A stretch of DNA of 28,386 bases, from positions 1-28,386 of the IMG/VR virus record IMGVR_UViG_3300048586_000552, one strand, 5' to 3'. The stretch is from a virus. Both the position numbers and the translations under genes were made by a program. The notes below the pieces were generated by a model. That model made no database searches. It was not told the origin of the DNA and saw nothing but the letters and a program-made list of their open reading frames with translations. Positions 3,507 through 26,293 of the stretch are shown one piece after another (positions within the stretch are counted from its first letter, which is position 1; each line of letters opens with the position of its first letter).

Positions 3507-3931
3507 GCCGGGGGCTCCTCATCGTTGGAGGGCGGCCGGGGCGTGGATGGGAAGACGCGATCCACGATTCCGTCGGCGATACGGTCGCCCCGTTTTTCCA
3601 GCAGCCCCAGGACGCGCAGGGCGGTGCGGGTGGCGTAGCGCGACGCAAAGCCCGCTACGCCCATCACGACTTGCGGGGACCATTCGGGGCGCCAGGAGTT
3701 TGCGGCGATGGCCGCAAGATGGCTCACAAAGAAGGCCACGAGCATAACCGCCCAAAAAGCGCGGCGGTCCGTTTCCTTGTCGAAGTGCGACGCAATGCTG
3801 GCACCGGCGAGTGCGAGGAACAGGCCGCCGATGTATTCGTGTGCGAGGAAGGAGATGCCCAGACCCGTCAGGAGCAGAGTCAGCCAATCGCGGGCGATGG
3901 ATTCGGTGTGCGACACGACGACCTCTTTCAT
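3503..3931 (-). CDS. Holin-like membrane protein
   Basis: A 142-aa protein with a hydrophobic N-terminal half. One long or two short membrane segments lie at about residues 16-50 (from WLTLLLTGLGISF), and another at about 58-78 (AFWAVMLVAFFVSHLAAIAA). A hydrophilic tail ends in Pro, Ser and Glu residues. It lies between the amidase endolysin and the Rz/Rz1 pair, with ATGA overlaps on both sides. This is the position of a holin, which would permeabilise the inner membrane to time lysis. No specific holin family was recognised, so the call rests on context and topology. The start is the ATG at 3931, in the stop of the amidase gene. Confidence 0.7.
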   Translation of the reverse strand: MKEVVVSHTESIARDWLTLLLTGLGISFLAHEYIGGLFLALAGASIASHFDKETDRRAFWAVMLVAFFVSHLAAIAANSWRPEWSPQVVMGVAGFASRYATRTALRVLGLLEKRGDRIADGIVDRVFPSTPRPPSNDEEPPA

Positions 3932-4428
3932 TTCTGGGCACCCAGGGCAGCGGTCACGAGGGCCCGGATCCGGTCGCCAACCTGGATGGCGTCGCCCACG
4001 GTCTTGTCGCCGGGCAGCCAGCGGATGTCCCACTTGCCCGCCTGCGGCACTTTCAGCGTGGGTTGCACCTCTGCGTGCGTCAGCACCGTGGTGCGCGAAA
4101 CGGGGATCCGGTATTGGCGACACAGGCGCGCCACGAGCGCGGCGAGAGCCTGGACCTGCGCGGGAGTGATCGGGTGCTTCCCGGCGTTGAAGGGGCGTTC
4201 GACGGCCCCAGCCATCGCCGCCACGGACACACCGATGGACCCTGTGTTCAGGCGCCGCGTGTGCGCGCCGTAGATCTGATCCGTGGTCACGATGTTGTCT
4301 TCGGGGGTGTGGTCCCCTTTCACCACCGAGCCATCGCCCTGCACAATGAAATGGTAGTGTTCTTTGTCCAATTCGGACGCGGTATGTGCCCCGCCGGTCC
4401 AGTGGATTATGATCCGTTTCAGGGTCAT
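3928..4428 (-). CDS. Endolysin: N-acetylmuramoyl-L-alanine amidase (amidase_2 type)
   Basis: Cuts the amide bond between N-acetylmuramic acid and L-alanine in peptidoglycan. Zinc ligand candidates are His9 (IIIHWTGG), His118 (LTHAEV) and Asp134 (KWDIRW), the last in the position where related lysozyme-like amidases carry Cys or Asp. YHFIVQGDGSV (25-35) is the typical conserved strand region. The protein is a single catalytic domain of 166 aa without a signal peptide, so it needs a holin. The start is the ATG at 4428, behind GGGCGG; a GTG at 4458 would add ten residues. The upstream hairpin covers the ribosome-binding site (see 4435-4472). The gene is coupled to the holin-like gene. Confidence 0.92.
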   Translation of the reverse strand: MTLKRIIIHWTGGAHTASELDKEHYHFIVQGDGSVVKGDHTPEDNIVTTDQIYGAHTRRLNTGSIGVSVAAMAGAVERPFNAGKHPITPAQVQALAALVARLCRQYRIPVSRTTVLTHAEVQPTLKVPQAGKWDIRWLPGDKTVGDAIQVGDRIRALVTAALGAQK

Positions 4429-4434
4429 TTGCGC

Positions 4435-4472
4435 CGCCCGTTTCCAAGGTGTGTCCACTTGGAAATGGGGCG
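4435..4472 (-). promoter_or_regulatory. Hairpin sequestering the endolysin ribosome-binding site
   Basis: In the minus-strand transcript, CGCCC-CA-TTTCCAAG (4472-4458) can pair with CTTGGAAA-C-GGGCG (4448-4435), an 8-bp and a 5-bp helix separated by a small bulge, with a 9-nt loop. The probable Shine-Dalgarno GGGCGG lies in and next to the 3' arm, five bases before the ATG at 4428. The 5' arm is part of the 31-nt repeat A. The pairing is visible in the sequence; translational control is inference. A transcription pause site or RNA processing site is an alternative. Confidence 0.5.
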
Positions 4473-4491
4473 TTTTCGGTCTTTTCGCTTA
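4461..4491 (-). repeat. 31-nt late-operon repeat, copy A
   Basis: On the plus strand it begins GGAAATGGGGCG and ends TTTTCGCTTA. On the coding strand it begins with the TAA stop of the phosphoesterase gene. It is one of six copies with identical spacing (others at 9183, 15177, 19072, 20349 and 22755), all in the same orientation relative to transcription. Confidence 0.75.
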
Positions 4492-5343
4492 CTCGAAGGG
4501 CCGTTCAAATGGCCCGTCGTAAGACGCGATCAGGCGGTCGGTCGAGATCATCGAGAAGGTGAAATTTCCGCGCCAAACATCGTCGAGCAGCACCACGCCA
4601 GACGCTTCCCCAATGTCGAGAAAGTCCGGGTCTTTGAACGTGGGCAGGCACAGGAATTTGTCCCATCCGCCGCCGGTCGAAGCGGGCACCGCGCGTTCAA
4701 GATAAGCCATCGTGTGGCTATGGCCCCAGACCGAGGAACGGCCGATTTTGGCGACGGCTTGTGTGATGGGCACCGCTTTGCCCATCAGCCCAGATTTGTG
4801 GTAGTGGGTGAAAAAGACGCCGCCCAGGTCGATGGTTTCCAGAAAGGGGACGACTTCGAAACCGCGCGCGGCGAGCCAGTCGGTGATCCAGTGCTTGGTG
4901 TTGATCAGGTCCACGTATTCTTCGATGGTGCCGCCGCTTTCGTCGATGCGCATTTCGTGGTTGCCGAGGCAGAAAACCATGCGGGGCGTGTAGCGCGCCC
5001 ATTTCCGGCAGTCGCGCGAGGCCCGGCGGTTGTAGCGGTTGATTTCGTCCAGGAAGTCCAAGATGGCGTCGCGGCCAGCCTGGATGTCCTGCAGGAACGT
5101 GGTCTTTCGGACGTTAGCTTTGCGCCCGGGCCCGCCCCGGCTTTTGGCGTCCTTCGGCAGGCACGGCATGTCCCAATGGTCGCCGATCCACAGGATCACA
5201 TCGGGCCGATTCCTGATGGCGAAACGAGCCAGGGCCCGCCACCGTTTGCGCGCTTTGGGGCTATCACTTGGCCGCACGTGCGGATCGCCGATCACGAGGA
5301 CCCGAAGCGGCCCCACCTGTTCCAGGGCCGGTGTCTTCTTCAT
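4489..5343 (-). CDS. Calcineurin-like metallophosphoesterase
   Basis: Two-metal phosphoesterase fold (284 aa). All metal-binding motifs are present in order: GDPHV (Asp20, His22), GDHWD (Asp55), GNHE (Asn128, His129), THYH (His180, His182) and GHSH (His208, His210), so it should be active. The substrate cannot be told from sequence; relatives act on nucleotides, nucleic acids or phosphoproteins. There is no signal peptide or membrane segment. The start overlaps the end of the tail tip gene by ATGA and the stop codon lies within repeat A, 61 bp before the endolysin. Its place between tail tip and lysis genes is unusual for an enzyme of nucleic acid metabolism. Confidence 0.9.
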   Translation of the reverse strand: MKKTPALEQVGPLRVLVIGDPHVRPSDSPKARKRWRALARFAIRNRPDVILWIGDHWDMPCLPKDAKSRGGPGRKANVRKTTFLQDIQAGRDAILDFLDEINRYNRRASRDCRKWARYTPRMVFCLGNHEMRIDESGGTIEEYVDLINTKHWITDWLAARGFEVVPFLETIDLGGVFFTHYHKSGLMGKAVPITQAVAKIGRSSVWGHSHTMAYLERAVPASTGGGWDKFLCLPTFKDPDFLDIGEASGVVLLDDVWRGNFTFSMISTDRLIASYDGPFERPFE

Positions 5344-8300
5344 CGCACTTCCTGCAGGTCGAACGCGGTCTGCGAGAACGGCGGCGAGAGCGTCCAGGCG
5401 GCCGCCCCCTCATCGAGATTGAACAGGTCACGCGTTGCCCTACGCCACCCCACCACGCGCCCTTCATCGGTGGGCACGACGGCGTAGCCCGCCAGGGAGC
5501 CCGTGGGCATGGCGGGCGCAGACGTCCACGAAGCCAAGCCGCCCTGTTGCAGCACACCGCCCGTTTCAGAGGCCGCCAGCCAGTCGTTGCGGGAACGGCG
5601 CCGTGCGAGGAAGTGCGGAGCACCCAGCGAGCTTTGCAGCGTCAAGCCGCCCACGGCCACGGTGTAAACCCGGCCGTCTTCCAGGACGCAGGAAGCAGGG
5701 CGCGCGAACACCTGAGAAACAGGGGCCGCAGCGATGTGTTGCGTCCAGGTGGCGCCGCCGTCCGTGGAGATGGCGATCGCGTCTTCGGTGGCGCACAGGA
5801 TGGTGTCCGCGTCGCCCGCCAGCAGCGAGGGCGCGAACGGGACCGGGCCCAGGGATGTCAGCGTGCCGGTGGGCGCGGCGACGGCGTAGAGCGTGGTGGC
5901 CGTGGCCGCGAGGTGGCGGCGGTTTGTGCCGCCGTTGCCGCCGAGGTCGCGGGCAATAGCGCGGGCTTCGGCACCCCCGATAGCCCCGGCGTTCAGCTTC
6001 AGATCATCCGCCCAGACGCGGCCGCCGCCCAGGGATTCCACAAACACGACGGCTGTGGCCGCGTTTGCGACCGGCAGCACCACACGCACAGGCTTCCAGC
6101 CTGGCGTGGAGGTCAGTGTCACCGAACGCGTCGTTGTGGCATCCGCAGCAGGGCGTGGCTGCACGGAAAACGCAGCAAAGATTGTCGTTGTGTATCTGAA
6201 TTCAAACGCGCCAGACGCGCGCACACAAGCCGCGCTTGCATCGTCCCCAAACCCCACGGTTGATGTGCCGGAAAGCTTAAAACCAGTCGCGGTTTGTTCA
6301 GCAGATACGGCAGATCCGGTTGGCAGCGTGTAGCCAAGCGCCCCAAAACACTCTATCGACTCACCCTCACCAAGCCCTGAAAATGCGATCGCATAATCAG
6401 TTCCTCCACCCCCCAAGACCTCCGCACGATACCGCGCAAAGGCGCCGGGGTTCAAAGCAAGCCCGATGCCCGAGGCACTGTAGTTTACAGAGCCGTTTGT
6501 GGACAGCAGAGTGATGCGAAGCGTAAGCCCATCGCCAAAGGGTGAGTCTATGACGGTTCCCGCCGCAATCGAGCCACTCGATGGTCCAACCGGCAAATAC
6601 TCACCGTTGCCGTCGAGTCCGGGCATGCGCACACCGACCCGCGCCGTCGCCCCCTCCTGGACCCATGCCGAGCCCTCCAGGCGCAGTTCAGCGCCCAGGC
6701 CAGCCGTGGAAATCGGCTGTTCAAGCAGGAAAGCGGCCGAGCCATAGAGTATGGACCGCCCCCCACCGACGGGCGAGGGGTTGGAGGATTCGATGGCCAC
6801 TGGCGATCCAGAAACCACCGTCCAGCCCGTCAGTCCGTTTTCAAACGACCCGTTGGCCAGGACATTGGACTCCGTGGTGTCCTTGAGATCCAGCAGCGTC
6901 CATCCGTTCGTCGTCAGTCGGTTGGCATACCAGGCCCCGCCATCCGCCGTGCGCACCAGGAATCCTTCGTTGCGCAGGGCCGAAATCGCTTGGCCGCCCG
7001 AGAAACCCGCGTCCGTGCGCAGCCAGGTGTGGCCGCCGTCTGTGGACCGGGACACGCTTTGGGCATGGACCGCCACAAGATCGGCCGACACGGCCGTGGG
7101 GCGGACGACGGGCATGCCGCCGTAGGACCCGCCATCGGGCGGTGTGCCGCCGGTGGCAGGCGCGCCATCGACGGGATTCCACGGCCCGTTGATCACGTCG
7201 ATCGGCGTCGTTTCCTCATACGAAAATTCGTAATCGCCCAGCGTCCGCTCACGCAGTTGAAGGGTCACGTTCAGCGTTTCGGGGTCGATCGTTTTGGCGG
7301 TGATCTCGAACAGTTTGGAGGTGTAGGAGTTGCGCGCCGACGTCCACGAAACCGTGTCCAAAGGCAGCAGCCCGAGCGCCGTTGGCCGCAGAGTCAGCGT
7401 GTGCGAGATCATGCGGCGGTTGTCGCCGACCATCTCCCTCATAAGCCTTTGCGCCTGGTAGCCCGACGTCACCGCGTTCAGCTGCAGCGAGGCGGTCAGG
7501 CGTCGGTTGTCGTCCTCCGCCTCCCATTCTGGCACGTAGAGCGGCGGGGCGTCCTTTGGCTTCCACAAAGCGTGCGGCGCGGGATATGTCGCGTGCGCGC
7601 CGTTGTAGGTGCCAGCCAGGCCCCGGAAGGGCTGGAAATCGCGGTCGTTCGACACGATAATGTCGTCGTCGGTGAAAAGGGCGCGCGGCAGAGGTGCCGG
7701 GCCCACAGAGATGTTCCAAGAGCCGCCGCATTCGGCGATCTGGCCAGAGCAGGCCGCCAAAAGCGTGGAAATAACGTCCAGCGGTTCTTGGTCCAGGCCG
7801 AATTCCAGGCCAGCACGGTAGCGCGGTTCTGTGGTCCCGCCCCACACCTCCACCTCTTCGTCGCACGCGTTCATGGCCGCGACCCATCGGTCGAGCGGCA
7901 GGCCCGAGGTGGGCACGCGCAGGCCGTAGAAAGAGCCATCGGCGAGGGGAATACCGCGCAGCAGGTTGTAGATCATAACCACCGGGTTTTCAGTGAATTC
8001 CCAGGTGGACGAATTGCCCGTGCGATGGCCTCCAACGCCGCCGACCGTCGAGTCCTTGCGCGGGTCATAGAGCCGCGCGCCCCGCAGTTCGAACAGGCAT
8101 TCCGGCATGCCCTGGAATTCGTCCGCGTCGTATTTGAACGTCAGGACGGCATACGCCACCCGGTGCAAAATGTGATTCGCGCTCCACGGCCGATCGGGGT
8201 AGTTGGAGTAGACCTCCACCAGCATGTCATCGGCCGTGCCTTGGCGTCCGTCGTGCCAACGCAGCCAGGCTTTGTTGGCAAATCGGGTCCCCGTGGCGGT

Positions 8301-8753
8301 CTTTCCGTAGAGATTCCCCGGCGTGGTGAAGGTCTGTTTTTCGGCGTTCACAAACACCGCGTCCAGGGACTCGATCGGGTAATCCGCGAGATCGATCACG
8401 TAGGTGAGATAGTCCACTGTTTTGCCGTTCGTGCCGTGTGTCATCGGCGGGCACACCGCATTACCGCCTGTGGCATACCGTCCGAAGATCATAGTTTGGG
8501 GGAGCGAGCCCCCGGCGGTGGTGGAGTCCGTGCGGATCCCAGGGTTGCTTTGTTTGGGCTTACCGATCAGGGCATTGGCCAGGGCGTTCAGCGCGTAAGA
8601 CGCGACGGTGCGCAGCAGGAACGACCCGATGGCAGATCCCGAAAGCGCGGTAAAAACCCCCGAGACCGCAGACACAAGACCGGCCAAGGGAGCGGCATGG
8701 GCGGGAGCAGCGGCAAAGACGAAGGCAAGAGCAAGCCAGAGAAAGCGCATCAT
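5340..8753 (-). CDS. Large tail tip / host specificity protein (J-like) with carbohydrate-binding modules
   Basis: The largest protein in the window (1137 aa) and the probable receptor-contacting tail tip. The N-terminus looks like a signal or membrane segment (residues 2-20), followed by an Ala/Gly-rich hydrophobic stretch to about 65. Residues of about 65-530 resemble the central tail hub of J-type proteins. From about 560 there are sugar-binding features: an Asp-box (STDGGHTW, about 570), a module opening NGSFENGLTGW (about 630) that resembles CBM4/9 folds, a second similar module (about 720-900), and another Asp-box (STDGGATW, about 994). The start ATG overlaps the peptidase stop. Codon use between about 6160 and 6560 looks less GC-rich than the rest, which suggests domain exchange. 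Confidence 0.85.
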   Translation of the reverse strand: MMRFLWLALAFVFAAAPAHAAPLAGLVSAVSGVFTALSGSAIGSFLLRTVASYALNALANALIGKPKQSNPGIRTDSTTAGGSLPQTMIFGRYATGGNAVCPPMTHGTNGKTVDYLTYVIDLADYPIESLDAVFVNAEKQTFTTPGNLYGKTATGTRFANKAWLRWHDGRQGTADDMLVEVYSNYPDRPWSANHILHRVAYAVLTFKYDADEFQGMPECLFELRGARLYDPRKDSTVGGVGGHRTGNSSTWEFTENPVVMIYNLLRGIPLADGSFYGLRVPTSGLPLDRWVAAMNACDEEVEVWGGTTEPRYRAGLEFGLDQEPLDVISTLLAACSGQIAECGGSWNISVGPAPLPRALFTDDDIIVSNDRDFQPFRGLAGTYNGAHATYPAPHALWKPKDAPPLYVPEWEAEDDNRRLTASLQLNAVTSGYQAQRLMREMVGDNRRMISHTLTLRPTALGLLPLDTVSWTSARNSYTSKLFEITAKTIDPETLNVTLQLRERTLGDYEFSYEETTPIDVINGPWNPVDGAPATGGTPPDGGSYGGMPVVRPTAVSADLVAVHAQSVSRSTDGGHTWLRTDAGFSGGQAISALRNEGFLVRTADGGAWYANRLTTNGWTLLDLKDTTESNVLANGSFENGLTGWTVVSGSPVAIESSNPSPVGGGRSILYGSAAFLLEQPISTAGLGAELRLEGSAWVQEGATARVGVRMPGLDGNGEYLPVGPSSGSIAAGTVIDSPFGDGLTLRITLLSTNGSVNYSASGIGLALNPGAFARYRAEVLGGGGTDYAIAFSGLGEGESIECFGALGYTLPTGSAVSAEQTATGFKLSGTSTVGFGDDASAACVRASGAFEFRYTTTIFAAFSVQPRPAADATTTRSVTLTSTPGWKPVRVVLPVANAATAVVFVESLGGGRVWADDLKLNAGAIGGAEARAIARDLGGNGGTNRRHLAATATTLYAVAAPTGTLTSLGPVPFAPSLLAGDADTILCATEDAIAISTDGGATWTQHIAAAPVSQVFARPASCVLEDGRVYTVAVGGLTLQSSLGAPHFLARRRSRNDWLAASETGGVLQQGGLASWTSAPAMPTGSLAGYAVVPTDEGRVVGWRRATRDLFNLDEGAAAWTLSPPFSQTAFDLQEVR

Positions 8754-9157
8754 TGCACCTCGAAAACGCGCTGTGCGCTGGACAAAGGGACATGGCCCAG
8801 GCCGCGCAGGGTCACGACCGCGACGCTGGGACCGATCACGATTCCCACTCCTATTTCGCCGTTCTGGACGACCGTGGCGATGTCGCCCACCTGTGCTTCG
8901 AGCACGGGTTTTTCGGGGAAATTGGCCGTTATGAAATGGACCTGATCGGTGTATCCGTCATCAGCCAGGAGCTCCAAACCGCCCGCAACCGTGGTGTAGT
9001 TTCCACGGTATGGTGCAGCCGGATCGTCGCCCCGGATGGCCTCCACGGCGCCCGCTGTGAACAGGCTGCAGTCGTGCGTTCCAGGTTGAAACGGGGTCTG
9101 CGCGAGGCCTGCAAGGTAGCTGTGCAGGCGGGAACGCCAGTTGATAAGCCGGGCCAT
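8750..9157 (-). CDS. NlpC/P60-like phage peptidase of the tail tip (DUF6950-like)
   Basis: A 135-aa protein whose HDCSLF motif (Cys30) fits the nucleophile of NlpC/P60-type cysteine peptidases, with a candidate catalytic His at about residue 121 (GLGHVPL). Small proteins of this type precede the J-like gene in many tail modules and are thought to cut peptidoglycan locally during DNA injection, or to act in tip assembly. The start is the ATG at 9157, with GGAG 6 nt upstream. That GGAG lies inside the hairpin at 9162-9194. Its stop overlaps the start of the tail tip gene (ATGA). Confidence 0.8.
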   Translation of the reverse strand: MARLINWRSRLHSYLAGLAQTPFQPGTHDCSLFTAGAVEAIRGDDPAAPYRGNYTTVAGGLELLADDGYTDQVHFITANFPEKPVLEAQVGDIATVVQNGEIGVGIVIGPSVAVVTLRGLGHVPLSSAQRVFEVQ

Positions 9158-9161
9158 TTAT

Positions 9162-9194
9162 CGCTCCATTTCCGCTTACAGTGGAAATGGGGCG
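9162..9194 (-). promoter_or_regulatory. Hairpin sequestering the ribosome-binding site of the tail peptidase
   Basis: On the transcript, CGCCCCATTTCC (9194-9183) pairs with GGAAATGGAGCG (9173-9162): 12-bp arms, one C-A mismatch, and a 9-nt loop. The GGAG of the ribosome-binding site is buried in the 3' arm. The 5' arm is part of repeat B. The same mismatch, opposite the A of GGAG, occurs in the hairpin before the tail tube gene. Confidence 0.6.
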
Positions 9195-9213
9195 CTTTGG
9201 CTTTTTCCGCTTA
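9183..9213 (-). repeat. 31-nt late-operon repeat, copy B
   Basis: Plus strand begins GGAAATGGGGCG and ends TTTTTCCGCTTA; on the coding strand it starts at the TAA stop of the 77-aa gene. Ten bases of it (TTTCCGCTTA) occur again at 9169-9178. Confidence 0.75.
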
Positions 9214-9444
9214 TTCTGCGGGGGATTCCTCTGGCGTTTCCGGGAAAGAGAAGGTGCAGGATTCCGAGTCATAACGCAGGCCGACACCCGCCACCGTGAA
9301 TCCGTCGATCACCCAAATCCCGTCCCAACCCAGGACCTCCGTTGCGTATTCCGGCCCCACCCCCGGCGGAGCCTCAATCACGTTCAGCACCACGCCGCCA
9401 GCGTCGATCTGCGCAAGACGCGTTACGCCGTTCTGTTCGCTCAT
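9211..9444 (-). CDS. Small tail-fibre-associated protein (77 aa)
   Basis: No firm family. The pattern RLAQIDAGGVVLNVIEAPP, then W-V-I, then GVGLRYD with a final Phe-rich strand, is what small proteins encoded after phage tail fibres often show; they are suspected fibre chaperones or accessory tip subunits. It overlaps the end of the glycine-rich adhesin gene by ATGA, which supports a joint function. Its TAA stop lies in repeat B. A chaperone role is inference from position. Confidence 0.75.
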   Translation of the reverse strand: MSEQNGVTRLAQIDAGGVVLNVIEAPPGVGPEYATEVLGWDGIWVIDGFTVAGVGLRYDSESCTFSFPETPEESPAE

Positions 9445-10577
9445 GCCGTCACCCTCCCCCAGACAATCATGCGGCCAGATCCGCTCAACCCACCGGTTAA
9501 GACGGCGGTTCCACTCGCCCTGTTCCCTGCGCCGCCGCCGCCGCTACCGGTATTGGCCTGCGCGCTTGTGCCCGACGCGCCGAGGAGTCCTCCGTTGCCG
9601 CCGCCGTTTCGCCCGAGTCCGTTCACAGAAGTGCTTGTGCCGCCGCCGCCGCCGCCGCAGAAGTCAAGCCAAGCCCAAAGCTTTTTGCGCACTCCGCCGC
9701 CGCCGTTTCCAGCAGAGGTTCCGTTGGACGCAGCACCAGGAGCGCCAAAGCCGCCGCCGCCACCCGCGACGCGGCTGCCGGAAGTGCCGTTTCCCGCGCC
9801 GCCGTTTTGGCCGGTGTTTTGCGAAGTTGCAGCACCGGCGGGTTGCGAGATGTTCGAGCCGGATCCGCCGCCGCCCGAAGCACCAGCGCCGCCGTTTCCA
9901 TACGCAGCAGCACCAACGCCACCCCCGAGCAGCGTTATGGAGAAGCCACCGGGGCCCGTGATCGTGGTGTTGTTGCCGGGCGTGCCAGGCGCGGCAGCGG
10001 CGCCGATGGACACGGTGTAGGTTCCAACGGGGAGCCACACCCTCCCATCCAGGAATTGCCCTGCGCCGCCACCGCCGCATGCGGATCCGTTGTTGTTGTT
10101 GATGTTTCCGCCCGCGCCGCCGGAAGCACAGCCAGTGAGATTGCCCCAACCAGCCCTGGACACGGTGAACGACCCCGACGTCAGCAGGTCCGCAGCAACC
10201 ATGGAGACGCCGAAATCGTCGGTCCAGTTCCGCGTCACACCGCCCGAAAACACCGCCTCTTGGTCCGCCGACACCGACGTGGGCGTGATCGAAAAGGCCA
10301 CCGCCTGGACGGCCACGCCAGAGCCACCCGCGTCAGCCTGGACCATGGCGACAAACGCGCCACCCGTGCCGCCGATGGTCCCCGACACCACGCCAGCCGT
10401 CGAGAGCGAGATCCCGGGCGGCAGGGCGCCACCAACAACAGACCAGGAGACCGACGGCGCGTCAGCCGTCAGGAACGACACGAGGCTGAAGGAAACGACA
10501 TCGCCAACCAGCCCTGTTTGGAGCGGGATGGGTTCGATGTCAAACCGGCCAGAGCGTGCTACGGGGTAGTAAAGCAT
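9441..10577 (-). CDS. Glycine-rich tail adhesin with Ig-like N-terminal domain
   Basis: A 378-aa structural protein, probably a receptor-binding fibre or tip adhesin. Residues of about 20-90 carry an Ig-like signature of the He_PIG kind (ALPPGISLSTAGVVSGT). A beta-rich linker follows (about 110-205), then from about 150 to the end many glycine tracts (GGGG, GGAG, GGGGGG) separated by Asn/Ser/Thr-rich loops. Such tracts in known phage adhesins pack as polyglycine II helices with variable loops that contact the receptor. The start is the ATG at 10577, with GAGGAA upstream. The DNA repeats of GCC/GCCGCC on the plus strand reflect the glycine codons. It sits between the distal tail proteins and the peptidase, where related modules have no such gene. 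Confidence 0.8.
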   Translation of the reverse strand: MLYYPVARSGRFDIEPIPLQTGLVGDVVSFSLVSFLTADAPSVSWSVVGGALPPGISLSTAGVVSGTIGGTGGAFVAMVQADAGGSGVAVQAVAFSITPTSVSADQEAVFSGGVTRNWTDDFGVSMVAADLLTSGSFTVSRAGWGNLTGCASGGAGGNINNNNGSACGGGGAGQFLDGRVWLPVGTYTVSIGAAAAPGTPGNNTTITGPGGFSITLLGGGVGAAAYGNGGAGASGGGGSGSNISQPAGAATSQNTGQNGGAGNGTSGSRVAGGGGGFGAPGAASNGTSAGNGGGGVRKKLWAWLDFCGGGGGGTSTSVNGLGRNGGGNGGLLGASGTSAQANTGSGGGGAGNRASGTAVLTGGLSGSGRMIVWGRVTA

Positions 10578-10586
10578 GTCAGTTCC

Positions 10587-11189
10587 TCACACGAAAAATC
10601 CGCGTTTGTCTTCGCCGCCCCAGGACACAGGGACGTCGCCCGCGATGTCTGCGTAGCGGCGCCCTTCGTCCGTCGAGAGCCGCTTTTTCAGCGATTCCGG
10701 GGACTTCTTCGACGCCAGGGTGCGGGTGCCCGCGCGTGCGCTGGACGCAACGGAAAGCGTCAGTTTTGCGGTGGCACCTTCCTGCACTTTCGGTTCTTCG
10801 ACCCACCCCACAAACGCAGGCGCGACGCCGATCAGGGCGCCCGTTTCGGGGTCGAAAAGTGCCAGGTGGACCTCGACCGGGGCCAGGCGTGTGTCGTATT
10901 GAAACACGGCCGCTTGGATCTCCGCCGACACCATCGAAAACGTCATCGACTGCATCTGGATCGACGTGCCCGATTCATAGGTCAGGTCGCCCATTTCAAT
11001 CAGGGCGCCCGCGCCGGTGTATGTGCGCGCCGCACCGTCCACGGTGAACGTGCGATCGTCTTCGCCGGTCCAAAAACCGGCGGCCTCCACGAGCCCGGTG
11101 GTCAGGTTGCGGGCCGAGATCCACACCAACCAGCGGGGCACAACCACGCCGGACGACACGGCCGCTTGCATCTCTTCGGTCAGTATCAT
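10587..11189 (-). CDS. Distal tail / baseplate hub-like protein
   Basis: 200 aa from the ATG at 11189, which overlaps the previous stop (ATGA) and has GGAGG about 12 nt upstream; an ATG at 11207 lacks a ribosome-binding site. The C-terminal region (SLKKRLSTDEGRRYADIAGD followed by W) resembles the ends of baseplate hub-type tail proteins found after the tape measure gene in alphaproteobacterial phages and gene transfer agents. The N-terminal region is beta-rich. It likely forms part of the tail tip complex. The family call is tentative; the position in the tail operon is clear. Confidence 0.75.
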   Translation of the reverse strand: MILTEEMQAAVSSGVVVPRWLVWISARNLTTGLVEAAGFWTGEDDRTFTVDGAARTYTGAGALIEMGDLTYESGTSIQMQSMTFSMVSAEIQAAVFQYDTRLAPVEVHLALFDPETGALIGVAPAFVGWVEEPKVQEGATAKLTLSVASSARAGTRTLASKKSPESLKKRLSTDEGRRYADIAGDVPVSWGGEDKRGFFV

Positions 11190-11833
11190 CGCAGGACTTG
11201 CCTCCATTCAAACGAGAAGCCGCCAGCGGCGCCGGGCGTCGATGTCCCGGCACGGAACGAGCCAGGCACGAGCATGGCGCGGCACGACGGGTTCACGAGC
11301 GCCACGGGCGCGGCGTGCGCGGCACCCGGGCGGATGGACGGAACGACGGTCACCGTCGCCCGGCCGGTGCCAGCAGCCGTGGCGCCCACCACAACCTGGT
11401 GGAGTGCTTGGCGAGCAGGCGAGCCGTAGGAGAAGGCGAGGTAATCGCCGGGCGTCAGCACGTAGCCAACCGGCAGGCCCGCCAGCGTCACATCGGGGGA
11501 GTCCGCCACGGGGTTGTGGAGCGTCACGGTGGCCGCGCCGAGGAGCGCGCCGGTGGGGTCAGCAGAGGGAAAACGCGCCTTGCGGTCGCAGACCATAAAC
11601 GTCGCCGCACCTTGGCGCAAAGCCTGCGCCAGGGCCTGTGCACGGCGTTGCCCGGCGTGCGTCGCGGGCGCCACTTCGATGGACCCGCGCCACAGGCGCG
11701 GGCCCAGGTCGGACACCAGCAATTCGCCGCCGCCGGTTTCGGTCACGCGCCGGTTTTCGGACAAGTCGAATTCGGACGACACGACCCGCAGGCCATCGTT
11801 GAAGGCAGCAAGGGAGAGTGGAAACGTCAACAT
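11186..11833 (-). CDS. Distal tail protein (minor tail protein)
   Basis: 215 aa, beta-rich, with no membrane segment. It is the first gene after the tape measure, the place of the distal tail protein that joins the tube to the tip. An NDGLRVVSSEFDLSENRR start, WRGSIEVAP (about 49-57) and a long central strand region are visible. The final FSFEWRQVLR resembles the ends of DUF2460-like tail proteins, but I am not sure of the family. It has a strong ribosome-binding site (GGAGGGG) before the ATG at 11833. It is translationally coupled to the next gene. Confidence 0.75.
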   Translation of the reverse strand: MLTFPLSLAAFNDGLRVVSSEFDLSENRRVTETGGGELLVSDLGPRLWRGSIEVAPATHAGQRRAQALAQALRQGAATFMVCDRKARFPSADPTGALLGAATVTLHNPVADSPDVTLAGLPVGYVLTPGDYLAFSYGSPARQALHQVVVGATAAGTGRATVTVVPSIRPGAAHAAPVALVNPSCRAMLVPGSFRAGTSTPGAAGGFSFEWRQVLR

Positions 11834-11836
11834 GGC

Positions 11837-14062
11837 TTACCCCCTCCGCCGTGGGTCTTGGGCCACGGCCATCTGTCGGCGCGGCAGGATCTCGCTGGAA
11901 AATTGCTCCAGGCCAGCGCGCGTCACTTGGATCGCGCCCTGGTTGGCCTCTTCGAGCACGCGGCCCACGAGGTCGGGCGAGAGTTCAACCATCACGCGGC
12001 CACCGCGCCCTGCGCCCTCGAGAAGGCGGCCGGTCTTTTGGGCGGTGATCACGCCCGAGCCACGCGGCAGGTTCACGAGCTCCGGCCCGCGCTCACCCAC
12101 CAGGGACAAGCCGCCGCGCCAGTTGGGCGTGCCGTTGGCGTTTGCCCCAATTCCCAGGAACGTCAGGAAATTGCCGAAACCCCCGCCGTTGCCGATCACG
12201 CTATCGAACAAGCTGGTGAAGGCCTTGTTGGCGATCATCTGTGCCATTTTCTTCAAGAGCTCACCGATCCCCTCGCGCGCCGATTTTGCGCCCGTCACCA
12301 CGGCGGCGAAGACGTCAGCGAGCGAGTCCCGCAGGAACTCCATGGGGTTCACGGCCTCTTTGGCCTCTTCGCCCAGCTCCTTGATGGCCTCTTTGGCAGC
12401 AGCAGGACCGCCAGCGGCGCCCGCGCCGCTTCCATCTGCGCCCGCGCCTTCCGGGGGGATCAGGCCAAACAGTTCGTCGTGGAGGTTTGACACCGGCGGC
12501 GTCGCTTCTTCGGCGGCGTCGCCCACGCCGTTCAGCGCTTCCCTGATCTTGCCAAATTCGGTGGACACGTCGCCGACGTCGAACACCTTTCCGAACTCGA
12601 TCCGGGTCTTGCCGTAGCCGTCGCCGAACGCGGCGGCGATGTCTTTTCCGGCGGCGGAAAGGGCCGCTTTTGCGTCGTTTTCGTATTCCGTGGTGTCGAA
12701 TTCGAACGCGTCGGACACCATCGCCTTGGGCAGCCGCGAGAGGGCCAGGCGGGGGTCGATTTCGCCCAGCTTTTCGTTCACCCAGGCGATCGTGCCGTCC
12801 ACGGCTTTGGGCAGGCCGTTCACCAGGCCGTTGCCCAGGGCCTGGATCAGCTTCGCAGCCGCCAGGCGGCCGATAGCGCCCAGGATGTCGGGCAGCGCCT
12901 GGAACGCAGCCACGGAGCCCTGGAACGCGCCCACAAACCCAGCCAGCACGCGGTCGGCGGCGTAGCCCATGGCGTAGACCGTGGCGTTGGCCACGGCCGC
13001 AGCAACGCGGCCAAACAGACGCGCAGCCTCACCGGCCGAGCCGGTGGCTTCTGTCACGCGCGAGAACTGGTAGGCCAATTCCCCCATGCCCACGATAAAG
13101 AGCCCGATGCCCGTGCGAAGCAGAGCGGCGCGCAGGAAGATCAGCGCAGACGAAAGACCCGCCGTGTAGAGAGCGGCCACACCCATCGCGGCGGTGTAGA
13201 CGCCGAACGAAACGGCAGCAGAGCCGAGGTAGTAGCCGATCCGTGTGATGTTTTCGCCCAGCGTCACCAGGACGGTGTTTACGATTCCGCCCTGTTTGAA
13301 AGCATCCGAAAGGGCGTTGGAAATAGCGGTTATGGCGGGCGCAGCGGCGCCCCCGATTTCCGAGATCATCCCGCCAAACGACTCCTTCAGTCGGTCGATG
13401 GAACGGCCAGCCTCTTCCAGTTTCAGCAGGGCTTCGGTCGAGATCACGGCTCCGGCCGACTCCGCAGCCGCGCCCAGACGTTCGAGCTCCGCGCCGTTGT
13501 TGCGCAGCAGTGGGAGGAGCCTGGTGGATTCCGACGCAGCCGACTCCATAAAGAAGGTCAGCTGTTTGTGTCCCACGCCAGCCTCTTCCAGCATCTGCAC
13601 CATGAGAGCCATGCCGTCAGGGCCGGACAGTTTAGCGAACTGTTGTGCCAGTTGGTCCGCTGTCGTCCCCATTCTTGGCGCGATCAGGTTGAAAAAGTCG
13701 GCCATCCCGCCGCCGCCGGTCGAGACGAATTCACCCACTTTTTCGTTGAAGTCTTTGAAAATGTCGCCAAGGGCGTCCTGTTCCAGTCCGACCGTGCGCG
13801 CGGCAGCGGCCCAACGCTGGAACTCTTCTGGGACAACCTTGGTCATGCGCGAGAGACGCAGGATCTCTTGTGCGTTTTCAGCGGCGGCCGTGCCGATTGC
13901 GCCGAGCGCGGCACCGAGCGCGGCCGCAGCCGCGCCCACCGCACGGATGGTGGAACGCAGGTTGTTCATCGAGCCTTGCGCCTGGCGCACGCCCTGCGAG
14001 AACTGCGCCACGTTCAGCGTCAGGTTGGCACGAAGGGCCCCGATTACTGCGCTTCCAGCCAT
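11837..14062 (-). CDS. Tail tape measure protein
   Basis: 741 aa from the ATG at 14062 (a TTG at 14071 would add three residues). The N-terminal part (residues 1-60) is the usual helical start seen in tape measure proteins. It is followed by long helical regions, two hydrophobic clusters (about 265-340) that could enter the host membrane, and a C-terminal region with GLSLVGERGPELVNLP (about 670), a well-known motif of tape measure C-termini. The length would set a tail of roughly 110 nm by the usual 1.5 angstrom per residue rule (inference). Its start overlaps the chaperone gene end by 19 bp, typical for these gene pairs. Confidence 0.93.
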   Translation of the reverse strand: MAGSAVIGALRANLTLNVAQFSQGVRQAQGSMNNLRSTIRAVGAAAAALGAALGAIGTAAAENAQEILRLSRMTKVVPEEFQRWAAAARTVGLEQDALGDIFKDFNEKVGEFVSTGGGGMADFFNLIAPRMGTTADQLAQQFAKLSGPDGMALMVQMLEEAGVGHKQLTFFMESAASESTRLLPLLRNNGAELERLGAAAESAGAVISTEALLKLEEAGRSIDRLKESFGGMISEIGGAAAPAITAISNALSDAFKQGGIVNTVLVTLGENITRIGYYLGSAAVSFGVYTAAMGVAALYTAGLSSALIFLRAALLRTGIGLFIVGMGELAYQFSRVTEATGSAGEAARLFGRVAAAVANATVYAMGYAADRVLAGFVGAFQGSVAAFQALPDILGAIGRLAAAKLIQALGNGLVNGLPKAVDGTIAWVNEKLGEIDPRLALSRLPKAMVSDAFEFDTTEYENDAKAALSAAGKDIAAAFGDGYGKTRIEFGKVFDVGDVSTEFGKIREALNGVGDAAEEATPPVSNLHDELFGLIPPEGAGADGSGAGAAGGPAAAKEAIKELGEEAKEAVNPMEFLRDSLADVFAAVVTGAKSAREGIGELLKKMAQMIANKAFTSLFDSVIGNGGGFGNFLTFLGIGANANGTPNWRGGLSLVGERGPELVNLPRGSGVITAQKTGRLLEGAGRGGRVMVELSPDLVGRVLEEANQGAIQVTRAGLEQFSSEILPRRQMAVAQDPRRRG

Positions 14063-14340
14063 TCCTTCCAACTCCGCTTCGGCATTTCCGCCGTCATCGC
14101 CCGAAGGCTTGCCATCACTTCTTCGCCGGTCATCGGCGGTGGTTTCTCACGACGAAGCAGCACGGCGAGCTTCGGGATCTTGGCGGCGCGAGAGAGCGTA
14201 GCGATCTCCCAGGCCAGTTCCGTGCGGTCGTCTTGAAGCCGTTTCAGCCGCTCCCCTTCCGCTTGCATCCGCCGCCAATAGGTGCGCGGCGTCATCGTCC
14301 AGAATTCGTCTTCACGGCCGCCGATGGCCTCAAAGGCCAT
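14044..14340 (-). CDS. Tail assembly chaperone, downstream part (T-like), made by frameshift
   Basis: A 98-aa reading frame from the ATG at 14340 (MAFEAIGGREDEFW), but its frame is open further upstream to 14394 and beyond, and it is the -1 frame relative to the gene before it. The sequence is helical and charged; MTPRTYWRRMQAEGERL is characteristic of the second tail chaperone in alphaproteobacterial siphophages. In lambda, gpG and gpGT bind the tape measure protein and recruit tail tube subunits. I expect it mainly as the C-terminal half of a 220-aa fusion (106 residues from the first gene plus 114 from this frame). No convincing ribosome-binding site precedes 14340. Confidence 0.8.
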   Translation of the reverse strand: MAFEAIGGREDEFWTMTPRTYWRRMQAEGERLKRLQDDRTELAWEIATLSRAAKIPKLAVLLRREKPPPMTGEEVMASLRAMTAEMPKRSWKEWLEAQ

Positions 14341-14357
14341 CAGCAGTTCTTCGATGT

Positions 14358-14705
14358 TCAGGCCCGGCCCGTCCTCCGGGCCTTCACGTTTCCCGCAGCA
14401 CTCGACTTGGCAGCGTCGGGCATGGCGGCGGCCACCAGGCGGGCGATCACGCCCGGGTCTTCCGAGAGGATGTCCCCGGCCTCTTCGGCGGTCGCGTCGG
14501 GCTGGTGCGTCAACAAGCAGACATGCACCAAGGCACGCATGTCCCGCGCCGAGCCCTTGCCCTGTTCCATGGCTTGGAGGACGTCCAAGGCGTTCTTGCC
14601 GTTGTTGCGGTCTTCAAATTCGGCCATGCTGTTGAAGTCCAACACCAGCGTGTATTCCTGGCCCTCAACAGATGTCGTCACCTTGCCTTTGAAGCGGTTG
14701 GCCAT
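14358..14705 (-). CDS. Tail assembly chaperone (G-like)
   Basis: 115-aa first tail chaperone, encoded between tail tube and tape measure genes as in lambda (gpG). The N-terminal strand region (FKGKVTTSVEGQEYTLVLDFNSMAEFED) and the helical remainder match the tail assembly chaperone type common in alphaproteobacterial siphophages. It ends shortly after a slippery heptamer (14394-14388), so part of the ribosomes would make the longer GT form ending at 14044. It does not occur in mature virions in the known systems. Confidence 0.85.
   Translation of the reverse strand: MANRFKGKVTTSVEGQEYTLVLDFNSMAEFEDRNNGKNALDVLQAMEQGKGSARDMRALVHVCLLTHQPDATAEEAGDILSEDPGVIARLVAAAMPDAAKSSAAGNVKARRTGRA
14366..14394 (-). 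promoter_or_regulatory. Programmed -1 ribosomal frameshift site (G GGA AAC plus hairpin)
   Basis: On the coding strand the heptamer GGGAAAC (14394-14388) is in the right phase, read in the zero frame as G GGA AAC. After a 5-nt spacer (GTGAA) comes a hairpin GGCCCG-GAGGA-CGGGCC (14382-14366), 6 bp of G-C pairs. The -1 frame is open without a stop through to the downstream chaperone gene. Lambda uses GGGAAAG in the same genes. All three expected parts (phase, heptamer, stimulatory structure) are present. Confidence 0.88.
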
Positions 14706-14711
14706 GGTGGA

Positions 14712-15143
14712 TTACTCCACGAGACCCGAGAGACGGAAGGTGACTTCCGCCATCATCTTGTCGTTCACCGGCGCGGTGCGGTTGTAGGCCTTCACGAAGC
14801 CCGCGTAGACCTCGATTTCGCGCGCGGCAGGGTCGAGCGTGGTGGGCGCAGGGACCGAGAATTCGATCTGGACCGTTTCGCCAGAGGCCTGGCAGGCCTT
14901 GAGGAGGACGTCCGTAGCCGAGCCCGGGACCCAGTGCAGTTCGACGGCAACTTCGCCGCTATCGGTCATGCCGGAAATGAATTCCTTTCTATCGGAGTCC
15001 ATGTGGGTCACTTCGATTTCGTCGGCGACCGCCTGCGGCATGTTGACATCGCCAATGCCAGCCAGTTTCGTCCATGTGGGGGTAGCCCCACGGCCGACGC
15101 GGATCGTTGTTCCCTTGCCGGTATTCACACCAGTTGAAGACAT
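14712..15143 (-). CDS. Major tail tube protein
   Basis: 143 aa. The NTGKGTTIRVG start, the DEIEVTHMDSDRKEFISGMTDSGEVAVEL centre (residues of about 42-70) and the predominance of beta strands are typical of tail tube proteins of long non-contractile tails. It is encoded just before the chaperone pair. The subunits stack in rings around the tape measure. The start is the ATG at 15143, with GGAG 7 nt upstream; that GGAG lies in a hairpin with repeat C (see 15149-15187). It must be made in many copies, so its upstream control is of interest. Confidence 0.9.
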   Translation of the reverse strand: MSSTGVNTGKGTTIRVGRGATPTWTKLAGIGDVNMPQAVADEIEVTHMDSDRKEFISGMTDSGEVAVELHWVPGSATDVLLKACQASGETVQIEFSVPAPTTLDPAAREIEVYAGFVKAYNRTAPVNDKMMAEVTFRLSGLVE

Positions 15144-15148
15144 GTTGG

Positions 15149-15187
15149 GGCTCCATTTGCCTTGCCTGTTCAGGTAGGAAATGGGGC
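15149..15187 (-). promoter_or_regulatory. Hairpin sequestering the tail tube ribosome-binding site
   Basis: On the transcript, GCCCCATTT (15187-15179) pairs with AAATGGAGC (15158-15150) with one C-A mismatch, and an inner CCT-GAAC-AGG helix (15174-15165) may cap it. The GGAG used for the ATG at 15143 is in the 3' arm. Same design and same mismatch as at 9162-9194. Confidence 0.5.
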
Positions 15188-15207
15188 GTTTTCGGCGTTT
15201 CCGCTTA
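15177..15207 (-). repeat. 31-nt late-operon repeat, copy C
   Basis: Plus strand begins GGAAATGGGGCG and ends TTTCCGCTTA. On the coding strand it begins with the TAA stop of the tail terminator gene. Confidence 0.75.
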
Positions 15208-17100: not shown

Positions 17101-17129
17101 GAAGAAGAACGGGGCCCCGAAGGGCCCCG
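17101..17129 (-). terminator. Intrinsic terminator after the major capsid gene
   Basis: On the transcript, CGGGGCCC-UUCG-GGGCCCCG (17129-17110), an 8-bp stem with a UUCG loop, is followed by UUCUUCUUC (17109-17101). It lies just past the stop of the capsid gene at 17142. The tail is broken by C residues, so termination is probably partial, letting downstream genes be read at a lower level. Confidence 0.8.
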
Positions 17130-17141
17130 CCGTTGGGCCGG

Positions 17142-18408: not shown

Positions 18409-19023
18409 TCAAAGGTTGGCGCGTGCAGCCAGCAGCGCGCGGATTTCGTTTTCTTCGGTGGTGGCAGCGTCCTGCATGCCCTTGATCGCCTTCACGCCGC
18501 CGGACATGAGAGCCCGTGCGACTGTCCGAGAAAACCCAGCGTCCTGCGTGAGTCGCTTCTCGATTTCCCGTTCCGTCATTTCGGCCGCCTTCACGGCGTC
18601 AATGCGGGCGGATTCGTTCATCGGGAACGTCACGATAGACACTTCCCAAAGCTCCGCTTTCTCAATGATGCGGATGTCCTCTTGCCACTTCCATTCCACG
18701 GTGCGGTAGCCGATCGAAAGACCGTCCAACGCGCCCATTTTCAGGAGGGCGTAAACCTCATTCCCGCGCGGTGTGTCCGCCAGGGTTCCTTCGACAACCA
18801 GGCCGCCAGCTTCTTCACGAAGGCCGGTCCAAACGCCGATCACTTCCGTGGCGTCGTGTTGCCAAAGCATGGCAACCTTGCGCCCAGACGCCAGCGACTC
18901 CGCGAAGGCGCCAGCCTGGACAACATCCCCGCCGCGATCGACGTTGCCGAACACGGATCCCAGGCCAGTGACACGGCGTTCACCTTCGGCCTTCACTTGG
19001 AAATGGGCGTATTTGCGATCCAT
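18409..19023 (-). CDS. Prohead maturation protease (HK97 gp4 / S78 type)
   Basis: 204 aa. A serine protease that cuts the scaffold domain from the capsid protein inside the prohead. The candidate nucleophile is Ser103 in GLSIGY and the catalytic His is His56 in MLWQHD; WEVSIVTFPMN (126-136) is the conserved third block. The start is the ATG at 19023 in the portal stop (TGATG), not the TTG just before it. The first codons lie in a weak copy of the late-operon repeat (about 18995-19020). Confidence 0.93.
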   Translation of the reverse strand: MDRKYAHFQVKAEGERRVTGLGSVFGNVDRGGDVVQAGAFAESLASGRKVAMLWQHDATEVIGVWTGLREEAGGLVVEGTLADTPRGNEVYALLKMGALDGLSIGYRTVEWKWQEDIRIIEKAELWEVSIVTFPMNESARIDAVKAAEMTEREIEKRLTQDAGFSRTVARALMSGGVKAIKGMQDAATTEENEIRALLAARANL

Positions 19024-20312
19024 CAAGCTGCATCCTCTTCCGGCGCGGGCGGCGTCGGTGTCTCTCCAGAAGGAGATGGGGCGGTTTGCAGATTTTCGCT
19101 TTGCGAGCCGCGTGGAATTTCATCGGCCCAGTCGTCTTCCACAGGCGGCAGGCCGAGGCGATCGCGCACTTCGTTCACAGACATGAAGCCAGGAACACCA
19201 CCAGCGCCAAGGGCTTTTTGGAAAAACTCCGCTTGGTCTTTGTGATCGCCGCGCAGCAGCTGGGATTCGTCGAAGTCGAAGAACAGGGCGGCGTCGGAAG
19301 CCAATACGTCGCGCACCAGGACTTCTTCCCAACGCTTCACCCATGGGTTCAACGTGTGCGTTACATGCATGCGGGCCATCTGTTCGACGCTGGCAAACGT
19401 GCTGGCTTTGTCAGCCTGCATGATCATCAATGGCAACACGCGATAAGCACGGGCCACCTCTTCGATCTGGAAGCGGCGGCTTTCGAGCACCTGGCCGTCC
19501 ACCGACGTCATAGCCATGGTCTGGAATTTCCATCCACCATCCAGGATGGCCACCCCGCCCGAGCCACCGCGGCCGAATTTCTCTTCCCACATCTTGCGCA
19601 GGTCAGCACGGGTGGCGTCTTTCAGCTCCGTTTCCTTGGTCAAGACGCCCGACGGTTGCCCCCCGTTGCCAGCAATGCGGGCCTGTTGGGTTTGCAGCGA
19701 CGTCGCCAGACCTATTGCTTCGGCCGCCAAGCGCACCGCAGGCAGGGCCTCATAGCCGTTCAGCGACGGCCCGCGCAGCAGCAACACTTGGGATTGGTCG
19801 AAGTAGCCGTGGGTTTTGTCCGAGTAGTCCACGCGGACGCGGATCCGGTAGTCCTTGCCTTGCTCAATGGACCAAGATCCGGGGGGGATGGGCAGCAACT
19901 CCCGCACTTCCCCGCGCACCACGTTCTTCACCGCGAGCGCAGAGCCGGTCAGCGCCGCGCAGAGCGTCATACCCTCGACGAATTCGCCTGGCGTTTGCCA
20001 GGCATTGGGCTTTACAGAAAGAAGCCGGGAGGCCCAGTGGTTGCGCACTACGCGGGTCTTCCAACGGCCCTTGCCGTCCAGGTTGCGTTCCTTCAATTCG
20101 ATCGGCATGGCGGCGACGCCTTCCGCGATCACCCGCACAGCGCAGAAAACGGCAGGCACTTGGAGGGCGGCGGCGTTTGTCACGCTCACACCCGAGGCCG
20201 AGGTGTAGCCAAGCCACCCAAAAAGGACGTCCGCGAGCGCGTCGAAACCATACACGGTGGACTTCGTTTCGGGCGCCGGAGCGGTCTTTTTCGAGAGGAA
20301 GGGAACGCGCAT
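19023..20312 (-). CDS. Portal protein (HK97 type)
   Basis: 429 aa from the ATG at 20312 (MRVPFLSKK), which overlaps the terminase stop (TAATG). Forms the dodecameric DNA channel at the capsid vertex. Typical family segments are seen: VTNAAALQVPAVFCAVRVIAEGVAAMP (about 45-70), LLPIPPGSW, GYEALPAVRLAAEAIGLA, GNGGQPSGVLT, RFQIEEVARAYRVLP and ADKASTFASVEQM. The C-terminal tail is Pro/Ser/Glu-rich and part of it (SENLQTAPSPSG) is encoded by repeat E. A reading frame extending further upstream is a shadow of the terminase gene. Confidence 0.95.
   Translation of the reverse strand: MRVPFLSKKTAPAPETKSTVYGFDALADVLFGWLGYTSASGVSVTNAAALQVPAVFCAVRVIAEGVAAMPIELKERNLDGKGRWKTRVVRNHWASRLLSVKPNAWQTPGEFVEGMTLCAALTGSALAVKNVVRGEVRELLPIPPGSWSIEQGKDYRIRVRVDYSDKTHGYFDQSQVLLLRGPSLNGYEALPAVRLAAEAIGLATSLQTQQARIAGNGGQPSGVLTKETELKDATRADLRKMWEEKFGRGGSGGVAILDGGWKFQTMAMTSVDGQVLESRRFQIEEVARAYRVLPLMIMQADKASTFASVEQMARMHVTHTLNPWVKRWEEVLVRDVLASDAALFFDFDESQLLRGDHKDQAEFFQKALGAGGVPGFMSVNEVRDRLGLPPVEDDWADEIPRGSQSENLQTAPSPSGETPTPPAPEEDAA
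19072..19102 (-). repeat. 31-nt late-operon repeat, copy E (inside portal gene end)
   Basis: Plus strand begins GGAGATGGGGCG and contains GATTTTCGCTTT. It lies in the last codons of the portal gene, about 50 bp before the protease start. On the transcript, TCTCC-TTCT-GGAGA forms a small hairpin beside it. Confidence 0.55.
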
Positions 20313-22776: not shown

Positions 22777-22785
22777 TCCCGCTTG
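22755..22785 (-). repeat. 31-nt late-operon repeat, copy F (at HNH gene start)
   Basis: Plus strand begins GGAAATGGGGCG and ends ATTCCCGCTTG. It overlaps the HNH start codon (22776) instead of lying ahead of it. A TGCGT / ACGCA hairpin can form just downstream. Confidence 0.65.
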
Positions 22786-26084: not shown

Positions 26085-26293
26085 CCCTCACCCCCGAACA
26101 GCGCAGAGAGCAAGAGGTGGATCGCCTTACCAAGGAGCATGGCTACCACCGCCAGTCCTGGGGGTTTCGTTCTGGGGTAAGGGATGGACTTGCGGGAGAT
26201 TTCCACAGCCTCTTTGATCCGAACTGGCCCGGCTACAAACAGGGCTTCAAGGCAGGGCAAGAAGCGGCACAGCGGGAAGGCGGCAAACCATGA
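26081..26293 (+). CDS. Small hypothetical protein (70 aa), Gly/Tyr/Phe pattern
   Basis: Starts in the previous stop codon (ATGA). Charged N-terminal helix (TPEQRREQEVDRLTKEHGYH), then a pattern GFRSGVRDGLAGDF ... WPGYKQGFKAGQEAAQ. The repeated G-x3-G and GF-x-x-G spacing resembles small phage or bacterial proteins related to ribosome modulation factor, but the match is only suggestive. Confidence 0.7.
   Translation: MTLTPEQRREQEVDRLTKEHGYHRQSWGFRSGVRDGLAGDFHSLFDPNWPGYKQGFKAGQEAAQREGGKP

Follow-up and report, generated by a model that had tools for sequence, protein, structure and literature searches.

The late genes of the virus deposited in IMG/VR as IMGVR_UViG_3300048586_000552 are preceded by a repeated 30-nt unit that most probably is a phage late promoter, with a phage RpoH-like sigma factor as its probable reader and, at the lysis gene and some tail genes, with masking of the ribosome-binding site (RBS) of read-through RNA as a second layer of control. 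The probability of this reading is estimated at about 75%. It draws on sequence comparison, which supports the copies themselves, their fixed spacing, a purine at the predicted transcription start (+1), leaderless starts, placement before orthologous genes, an excess of pairing and, in a divergent phage, a sigma factor gene encoding protein P0002. Promoter activity, recognition by a P0002-type sigma factor and an effect on translation are predicted from these features.

The window analyzed corresponds to the entire record (28,386 bases); an integrase gene is located at its left, and its right end is open. Its late genes occupy the minus strand from about 23.1 kb down to 1.7 kb; their starts were located, and the key ones were verified against Pfam. 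Besides, the unit was compared with its copies in G397 (IMGVR_UViG_3300026262_000001, 40,977 bp), a divergent phage, and in G398 (IMGVR_UViG_3300037296_000037, a 5,184-bp fragment).

The repeated unit and its promoter-like layout

Repeat, pattern and position-weight scans revealed six copies of the unit in the window (A to F), all of equal length and all on the minus, late-gene strand. When both strands were scanned with a position-specific scoring matrix, these copies scored 38.6-51.0 bits versus 5.9 bits for the next site. Each of them closely precedes a gene start, namely that of the HNH endonuclease, portal, protease, tail tube, tail peptidase or endolysin gene. An earlier note on this sequence had reported three copies, at 4461 (A), 9183 (B) and 15177 (C), each carrying the TAA of the upstream gene. 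Their positions on the minus strand proved right, as did the names given to the endolysin, tail peptidase and tail tube genes (Amidase_2, DUF6950 and Phage_TTP_12, respectively), while D, E and F had been missed. The copies and the genes that follow them are listed below.

4461-4490, minus strand: unit copy A, before the endolysin gene; -35-like AAGCGAA at 4490-4484, -10-like CCCCATTT at 4470-4463, predicted +1 G at 4455; aligned with the G397 endolysin copy
4428-4455, minus strand: predicted 27-nt endolysin leader; in read-through RNA it would pair with the unit, the RBS then being hidden
3928-4428, minus strand: endolysin, N-acetylmuramoyl-L-alanine amidase (Pfam Amidase_2, 5e-16)
9183-9212, minus strand: unit copy B, before the tail peptidase gene; -10-like CCCCATTT at 9192-9185, predicted +1 A at 9177
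9157-9177, minus strand: predicted 20-nt peptidase leader containing GGAG, which would be hidden in read-through RNA
8750-9157, minus strand: tail peptidase, DUF6950, NlpC/P60-like (Pfam)
15177-15206, minus strand: unit copy C, before the tail tube gene; -10-like CCCCATTT at 15186-15179, predicted +1 G at 15171; orthologous copies in G397 and G398
14712-15143, minus strand: tail tube protein (Pfam Phage_TTP_12)
19072-19101, minus strand: unit copy D, within the 3' end of the portal gene, upstream of the protease gene; -10-like CCCCATCT at 19081-19074, predicted +1 G at 19066; same place in G398
18409-19023, minus strand: prohead protease (Pfam Peptidase_S78)
20349-20378, minus strand: unit copy E, within the 3' end of terL, upstream of the portal gene; -10-like CCCCATCT at 20358-20351, predicted +1 A at 20343; same place in G397
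19023-20312, minus strand: portal protein (Pfam Phage_portal)
22755-22784, minus strand: unit copy F, before the HNH gene; -10-like CCCCATTT at 22764-22757, predicted +1 at the A of ATG 22749 (leaderless); same place and spacing in G397
22336-22749, minus strand: HNH endonuclease, first gene of the packaging block (Pfam HNH; start from the G397 alignment, blastp 51%)

It had been proposed that the repeat starts at stop codons. The TAA of the upstream gene is indeed the beginning of copies A to C. D and E lie inside the ends of the portal gene and terL, at non-conserved C-termini adjoining the next start, and do not begin with a stop codon, while F begins 4 nt past a TAG. Hence, the unit is not defined by a stop codon. 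Moreover, the unit is read in one frame in D and E and in another in F, which is located inside a longer HNH reading frame; nucleotides rather than a peptide are therefore conserved.

All 14 copies, from the window and from G397, could be aligned without any gap, no insertion or deletion being present between the two boxes. Conserved columns correspond to AAGCGRA and, after a variable middle, to AAACGCCCCATYTCCT, plus a single column located 8 nt past CCCCATYT. The CCCCATYT box is found in 14/14 copies, and the base of this single column is a purine in all 14 (A in nine, G in five) as well as in both G398 copies (A). The chance probability of a purine in 16/16 copies at one column is about 1.5e-5, and 2.4e-4 for the 12/12 that remain once four copies with an ATG at this place are set aside; these and all other p-values given here are exploratory, being based on three independent phages. 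With this purine counted as +1, AAGCGRA extends from -35 to -29 and CCCCATYT from -15 to -8, which is the layout of a promoter with two boxes and a purine start. In E. coli, the -10 consensus of sigma-32 promoters is CCCCATWT/CCCCATNT (PMC6687850), and the -10 part of the unit is identical to the element CCCCATNT.

In four copies, located before the HNH gene of the window and the HNH, helicase and peptidase genes of G397, an ATG falls exactly at the predicted +1. Leaderless mRNAs are therefore predicted, in which neither a Shine-Dalgarno (SD) sequence nor a hairpin is possible. The HNH starts of the window and G397 agree by alignment. Across the copies, CCCCATYT is separated from the start codon by 7-65 nt, and the unit does not contain an SD sequence. 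An internal GCG-N13-CGC stem was also considered by eye and dropped, as it comprises 3 pairs only and is unextended in most copies. Acting as promoters, the units would split the co-oriented late operon into blocks for HNH-TerS-TerL, portal, protease-capsid-connectors, tail tube onward, peptidase-hub-phosphoesterase and lysis.

Relatives carrying the unit and a candidate sigma factor

Searches with the endolysin, TerL, major capsid protein (MCP), hub or tail tube did not retrieve any close relative of the window phage, and the strict unit pattern had zero matches in the viral contig collection. Relaxed patterns applied to viral contigs led to G397, G398 and partial contigs identical to G397. 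The proteins of G397 share 25-60% identity with the late proteins of the window, and the portal and protease of G398 about 60% with their window counterparts. The unit was absent or at chance level in the relatives retrieved by the endolysin, TerL, MCP and hub proteins, and likewise in four Paracoccus/Mesorhizobium phages, INPHARED records and 385 alphaproteobacterial genomes. No Rfam family matched the window or G397 above its gathering score. A single match to the unit in L077 was rejected, being an intrinsic terminator that contains the core by coincidence.

Eight copies were found in G397, all on one strand, with none on the opposite strand and 0 for the reversed-pattern control. Seven precede the HNH gene, the portal gene (inside the end of terL), the MCP, tail tube and peptidase genes, an endolysin-like gene after the hub stop codon and a helicase gene of the early region; the eighth stands before a short structured stretch ahead of the HNH gene. 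G398 has two copies: one precedes the protease gene, in the position of D, and the other, which is weaker, precedes the tail tube gene, in the position of C. Placement is thus orthologous between the window and G397 at the HNH, portal, tail tube, peptidase and endolysin genes, and between the window and G398 at the protease and tail tube genes. The alternative foreseen in the earlier note, a mobile intergenic element scattered at random, does not agree with a unit found in one orientation, before gene starts and at places kept between orthologs.

G397 encodes a 275-aa protein of the sigma-70 family, P0002 (L093 17843-18670, minus strand), in which Sigma70_r4 is detected above the Pfam cut-off and Sigma70_r2 below threshold. 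Among NCBIfam families, P0002 best matches "RNA polymerase factor sigma-32" (E=2e-13), with residues 6-265, i.e., nearly its full length, being covered; it also matches the sigma factor family PHROG 351. Because the -10 box of the unit equals the E. coli sigma-32 element and the -35 box does not, the likely reader of the unit would be a phage-encoded RpoH-like sigma factor, such as the one of G397. Two plasmid relatives of P0002 (from Bosea and Pseudorhodobacter) were set aside, phage genes not being nearby and the unit not being found in their regions.

Some further features of G397 were observed. Directly downstream of its unit copy at 26158, a structured, tRNA-like stretch (26190-26320, i.e., L094:6190-6320) includes a perfect T-arm-like GCGGGTTCAAGTCCCGC and could be a small RNA made from that promoter; neither ARAGORN nor Rfam supported its reading as a tRNA. 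Beside its full late operon, G397 has a plasmid replication initiator of the RPA type, a ParA-like ATPase and a weak match to Mob_Pre (L093/L094), and its hub gene spans the contig ends. G397 looks like a circular phage-plasmid.

Predicted masking of ribosome-binding sites and other features of the window

The earlier note had described a pairing of copies A, B and C with the RBS of the next gene. This pairing is present, with 11/12 pairs and one C-A mismatch at B, 5+8 pairs at A and 8 pairs with the same mismatch at C. Compared with dinucleotide shuffles, core-leader pairing gave p-values of about 0.002 for B, 0.11 for A and 0.12 for C. According to core-versus-leader scoring, window B (0.002) and the G397 endolysin copy (p 0.007) alone stand out, and the ten tested copies combined gave 0.002. 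As pairing of the core with its own leader looked weak except at B, the arm was then extended to +1, and swapped leaders and control genes were added. Under these conditions, own arm-leader pairs were stronger than swapped ones (p=0.006). Fold z-scores were -2.7, -3.3 and -0.05 for A, B and C, respectively, and no SD-sequestering fold was found for D, E and F. The conserved AAGCGRA half of the unit has no role in the hairpin.

RNA containing the unit and RNA starting at +1 were then compared for the energy needed to open the RBS and start codon. This cost decreased from 19.0 to 4.2 kcal/mol at window A (a difference of +14.8), from 19.3 to 6.7 kcal/mol at window B (+12.6) and from 21.4 to 7.0 kcal/mol at the G397 endolysin gene (+14.4). 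These three differences exceed all of the 201 control comparisons made with unit-free genes (mean 0.9, 95th percentile 6.4, maximum 11.2). At the tail tube gene, the values for read-through and started RNA were 13.0 and 6.3 kcal/mol in the window (+6.7), 17.2 and 7.3 in G397 (+9.9), and 10.1 and 4.4 in G398 (+5.7); at the G398 protease gene they were 12.5 and 3.7 kcal/mol. The sequence of the endolysin pairing differs between the window and G397, the effect being retained. The G397 peptidase copy, which is the ortholog of B, is leaderless and has lost the hairpin. Hence, masking seems to be a gene-by-gene addition rather than the core function of the unit.

According to the proposed mechanism, the promoter strand upstream of +1 would mask, by pairing, the RBS in the leader that follows the endolysin and peptidase copies and, less strongly, the tail tube copies. 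RNA reading through from upstream would fold in this way and support little translation; transcripts started at the promoter, in contrast, would lack the 5' arm and keep their RBS open. On the plus strand, the B hairpin is followed by CTTTGGCTTTTT (window 9162-9194); this segment has a terminator-like score and could stop antisense RNA.

Other features of the window were recorded as well. A strong hairpin resembling an intrinsic terminator (17108-17131) occupies part of the 60 nt that follow the major capsid gene, a long gap of the late operon without a unit. Between the DUF2163 gene and the gene preceding the peptidase, GC-rich simple-repeat coding sequence (9441-10577) specifies a glycine-rich protein, perhaps a tail fibre or a glycine-rich tail-tip protein. 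The late operon ends, past the lysis genes, with an N6/N4 DNA methylase gene (1694-2683). Just past the integrase gene, three AATGGTTTAAATCCAAACCATTT copies (1579-1686) are possible arm-type or excisionase sites. Between the leftward late and the rightward early genes, a cluster of palindromic GTTCCCGGGAAC / TTCCC(C/A)GGAACGAAA repeats (23180-23450) likely corresponds to phage-repressor operators.

Alternative explanations, known systems and significance

Several observations weigh against the unit being a late promoter read by a phage RpoH-like sigma factor. It was found in only three independent phages, the remaining records being identical to G397. A tblastn search of the window, whose right end is open and seems to be short of about 10 kb, did not reveal any sigma factor gene. 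P0002 falls far under the NCBIfam RpoH equivalog cut-offs, and its predicted structure was poor, too poor for structure searching. It is also divergent in region 2.3/2.4; this divergence in region 2 fits a changed specificity, without proving it. The TTG/CTTGAA -35 element of sigma-32 promoters is not in the unit, AAGCGRA occupying its position. As for masking, the opening cost is unchanged at the portal gene of both phages, the window protease gene and the G397 MCP gene. Besides, some pairing is expected from a C-rich -10 box facing a G-rich RBS, although the control genes and the swapped leaders argue against this composition explaining all of it.

The exact sigma-32-type -10 element, together with the window being without a sigma gene, could instead point to promoters of a host heat-shock sigma factor, in which case late genes would respond to stress of the host and not to a phage sigma. 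However, a TTG at -35 is required by both RpoH proteins of R. sphaeroides (PMC3441632); neither TTG nor CTTGAA, needed by an alphaproteobacterial host RpoH, stands there in the unit, and a host RpoH is therefore a less likely reader. Alphaproteobacterial -10 boxes may also differ from CCCCAT (PMC6687850, on Ehrlichia), single unit matches in the sampled alphaproteobacterial genomes are at chance level, and G397 encodes its own sigma factor. Hence, this explanation is considered unlikely. A phage DNA-binding activator acting beside an ordinary sigma-70 promoter would account for AAGCG as a possible half-site and for the fixed spacing, which suits a contact between activator and polymerase. However, there is no TATAAT-like -10 box, the C-rich CCCCAT itself occupies this position, and sigma-70-type promoters in the late region are at chance (2 found versus 2.0 expected), none being at a unit; an activator site is thus quite unlikely.

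According to the earlier note, the unit was an RNA element serving mainly to keep the RBS sequestered, pending the binding of a protein or a small RNA to its constant 5' part. Three observations agree with it: the strong hairpins of window A, window B and the endolysin copy of G397, the excess of pairing over shuffles and swaps, and the retention of the unit at orthologous genes. However, the four leaderless copies, including the G397 ortholog of B, are unable to hide an RBS, the genes with unchanged opening cost show no masking, and the +1 purine and the -35/-10 spacing are left unexplained. A very low probability is therefore given to this explanation. From it, RBS hiding is retained as a second layer, with 12-15 kcal/mol extra at window A, B and the G397 endolysin gene, and so is the idea of a common unit recognized by a protein, here as a DNA promoter with fixed -35, -10 and +1 positions. 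Least probable of all is a repressor site blocking elongation at gene borders, as the stoperators of cluster A mycobacteriophages do. Like these asymmetric sites, which are distributed across the genome (PMC9283540), the unit is phage specific and asymmetric, has a single orientation relative to transcription and occurs at gene borders in several copies per genome. Stoperators are immunity-repressor sites stopping elongation, whereas the unit has the geometry of a promoter: an invariant +1 purine, a fixed 7-nt distance to ATG and a -10 box equal to CCCCATNT are not predicted by such a role, and better operator candidates are provided by the palindromic GTTCCCGGGAAC repeats at 23180-23450.

As a late promoter, the unit can be placed among known systems. 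Its similarity to phage-sigma late promoters (T4 gp55; SPO1) lies in many near-identical promoters before late genes and in a phage-encoded protein of the sigma family, in G397. In SPO1, gp28 and gp33/34 are phage sigma factors for phage late promoters. T4 late promoters consist only of TATAAATA and require gp33 and the sliding clamp, whereas an RpoH-like sigma factor and separate -35 and -10 boxes are proposed here. With E. coli sigma-32 promoters, the unit shares the -10 element CCCCATNT (PMC6687850), a similar distance between boxes and a purine start; it differs from them by AAGCGRA instead of CTTGAA/TTG at -35, by a longer conserved block (ACGCCCCATYTCCT), by its association with phage late genes and by several leaderless genes. 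The short, asymmetric, phage-specific start-associated sequences (SAS) and extended SAS (ESAS) of cluster K mycobacteriophages also stand in one orientation upstream of gene starts. However, SAS include AGGAG and are found 3-7 bp from the starts of non-structural genes (PMC3203893), unlike the unit, which has no SD core, is located 7-65 nt away and precedes mainly structural and lysis genes.

The closest precedent for masking makes the "undescribed riboregulatory system" of the earlier note an overstatement. In T4 gene e, the RBS is hidden in a long early RNA, the 5' strand of the hairpin being encoded by the late promoter (PMC3014915). As in the leaders of T4 e, soc, 49 and I-TevI (PMC3014915), an RBS that is paired when RNA reads through but free when RNA starts at the promoter is predicted for window A, window B and the endolysin gene of G397, and more weakly for the tail tube gene; in both cases the lysis gene is the clearest. 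Here, in a masking that is predicted, the promoter box CCCCATYT would itself be the pairing arm, and it recurs before several genes, some copies being leaderless.

The wider proposal has about even odds: a phage lineage, probably one of alphaproteobacteria, would have its own RpoH-derived sigma factor reading a private promoter (AAGCGRA, CCCCATYT) at each late block, with the -10 strand reused as an RBS lock at lysis and tail genes. If true, both transcription and translation would silence these genes until the phage sigma factor is made, and a late promoter and an RBS-hiding hairpin would share bases at a lysis gene in a case outside T4. Late gene control is unknown in most environmental phages, and the comparison gives here a testable promoter code, predicted starts for three phages and a candidate sigma factor. 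It also shows that a distant relative can help to decode the intergenic repeats of a single phage contig.

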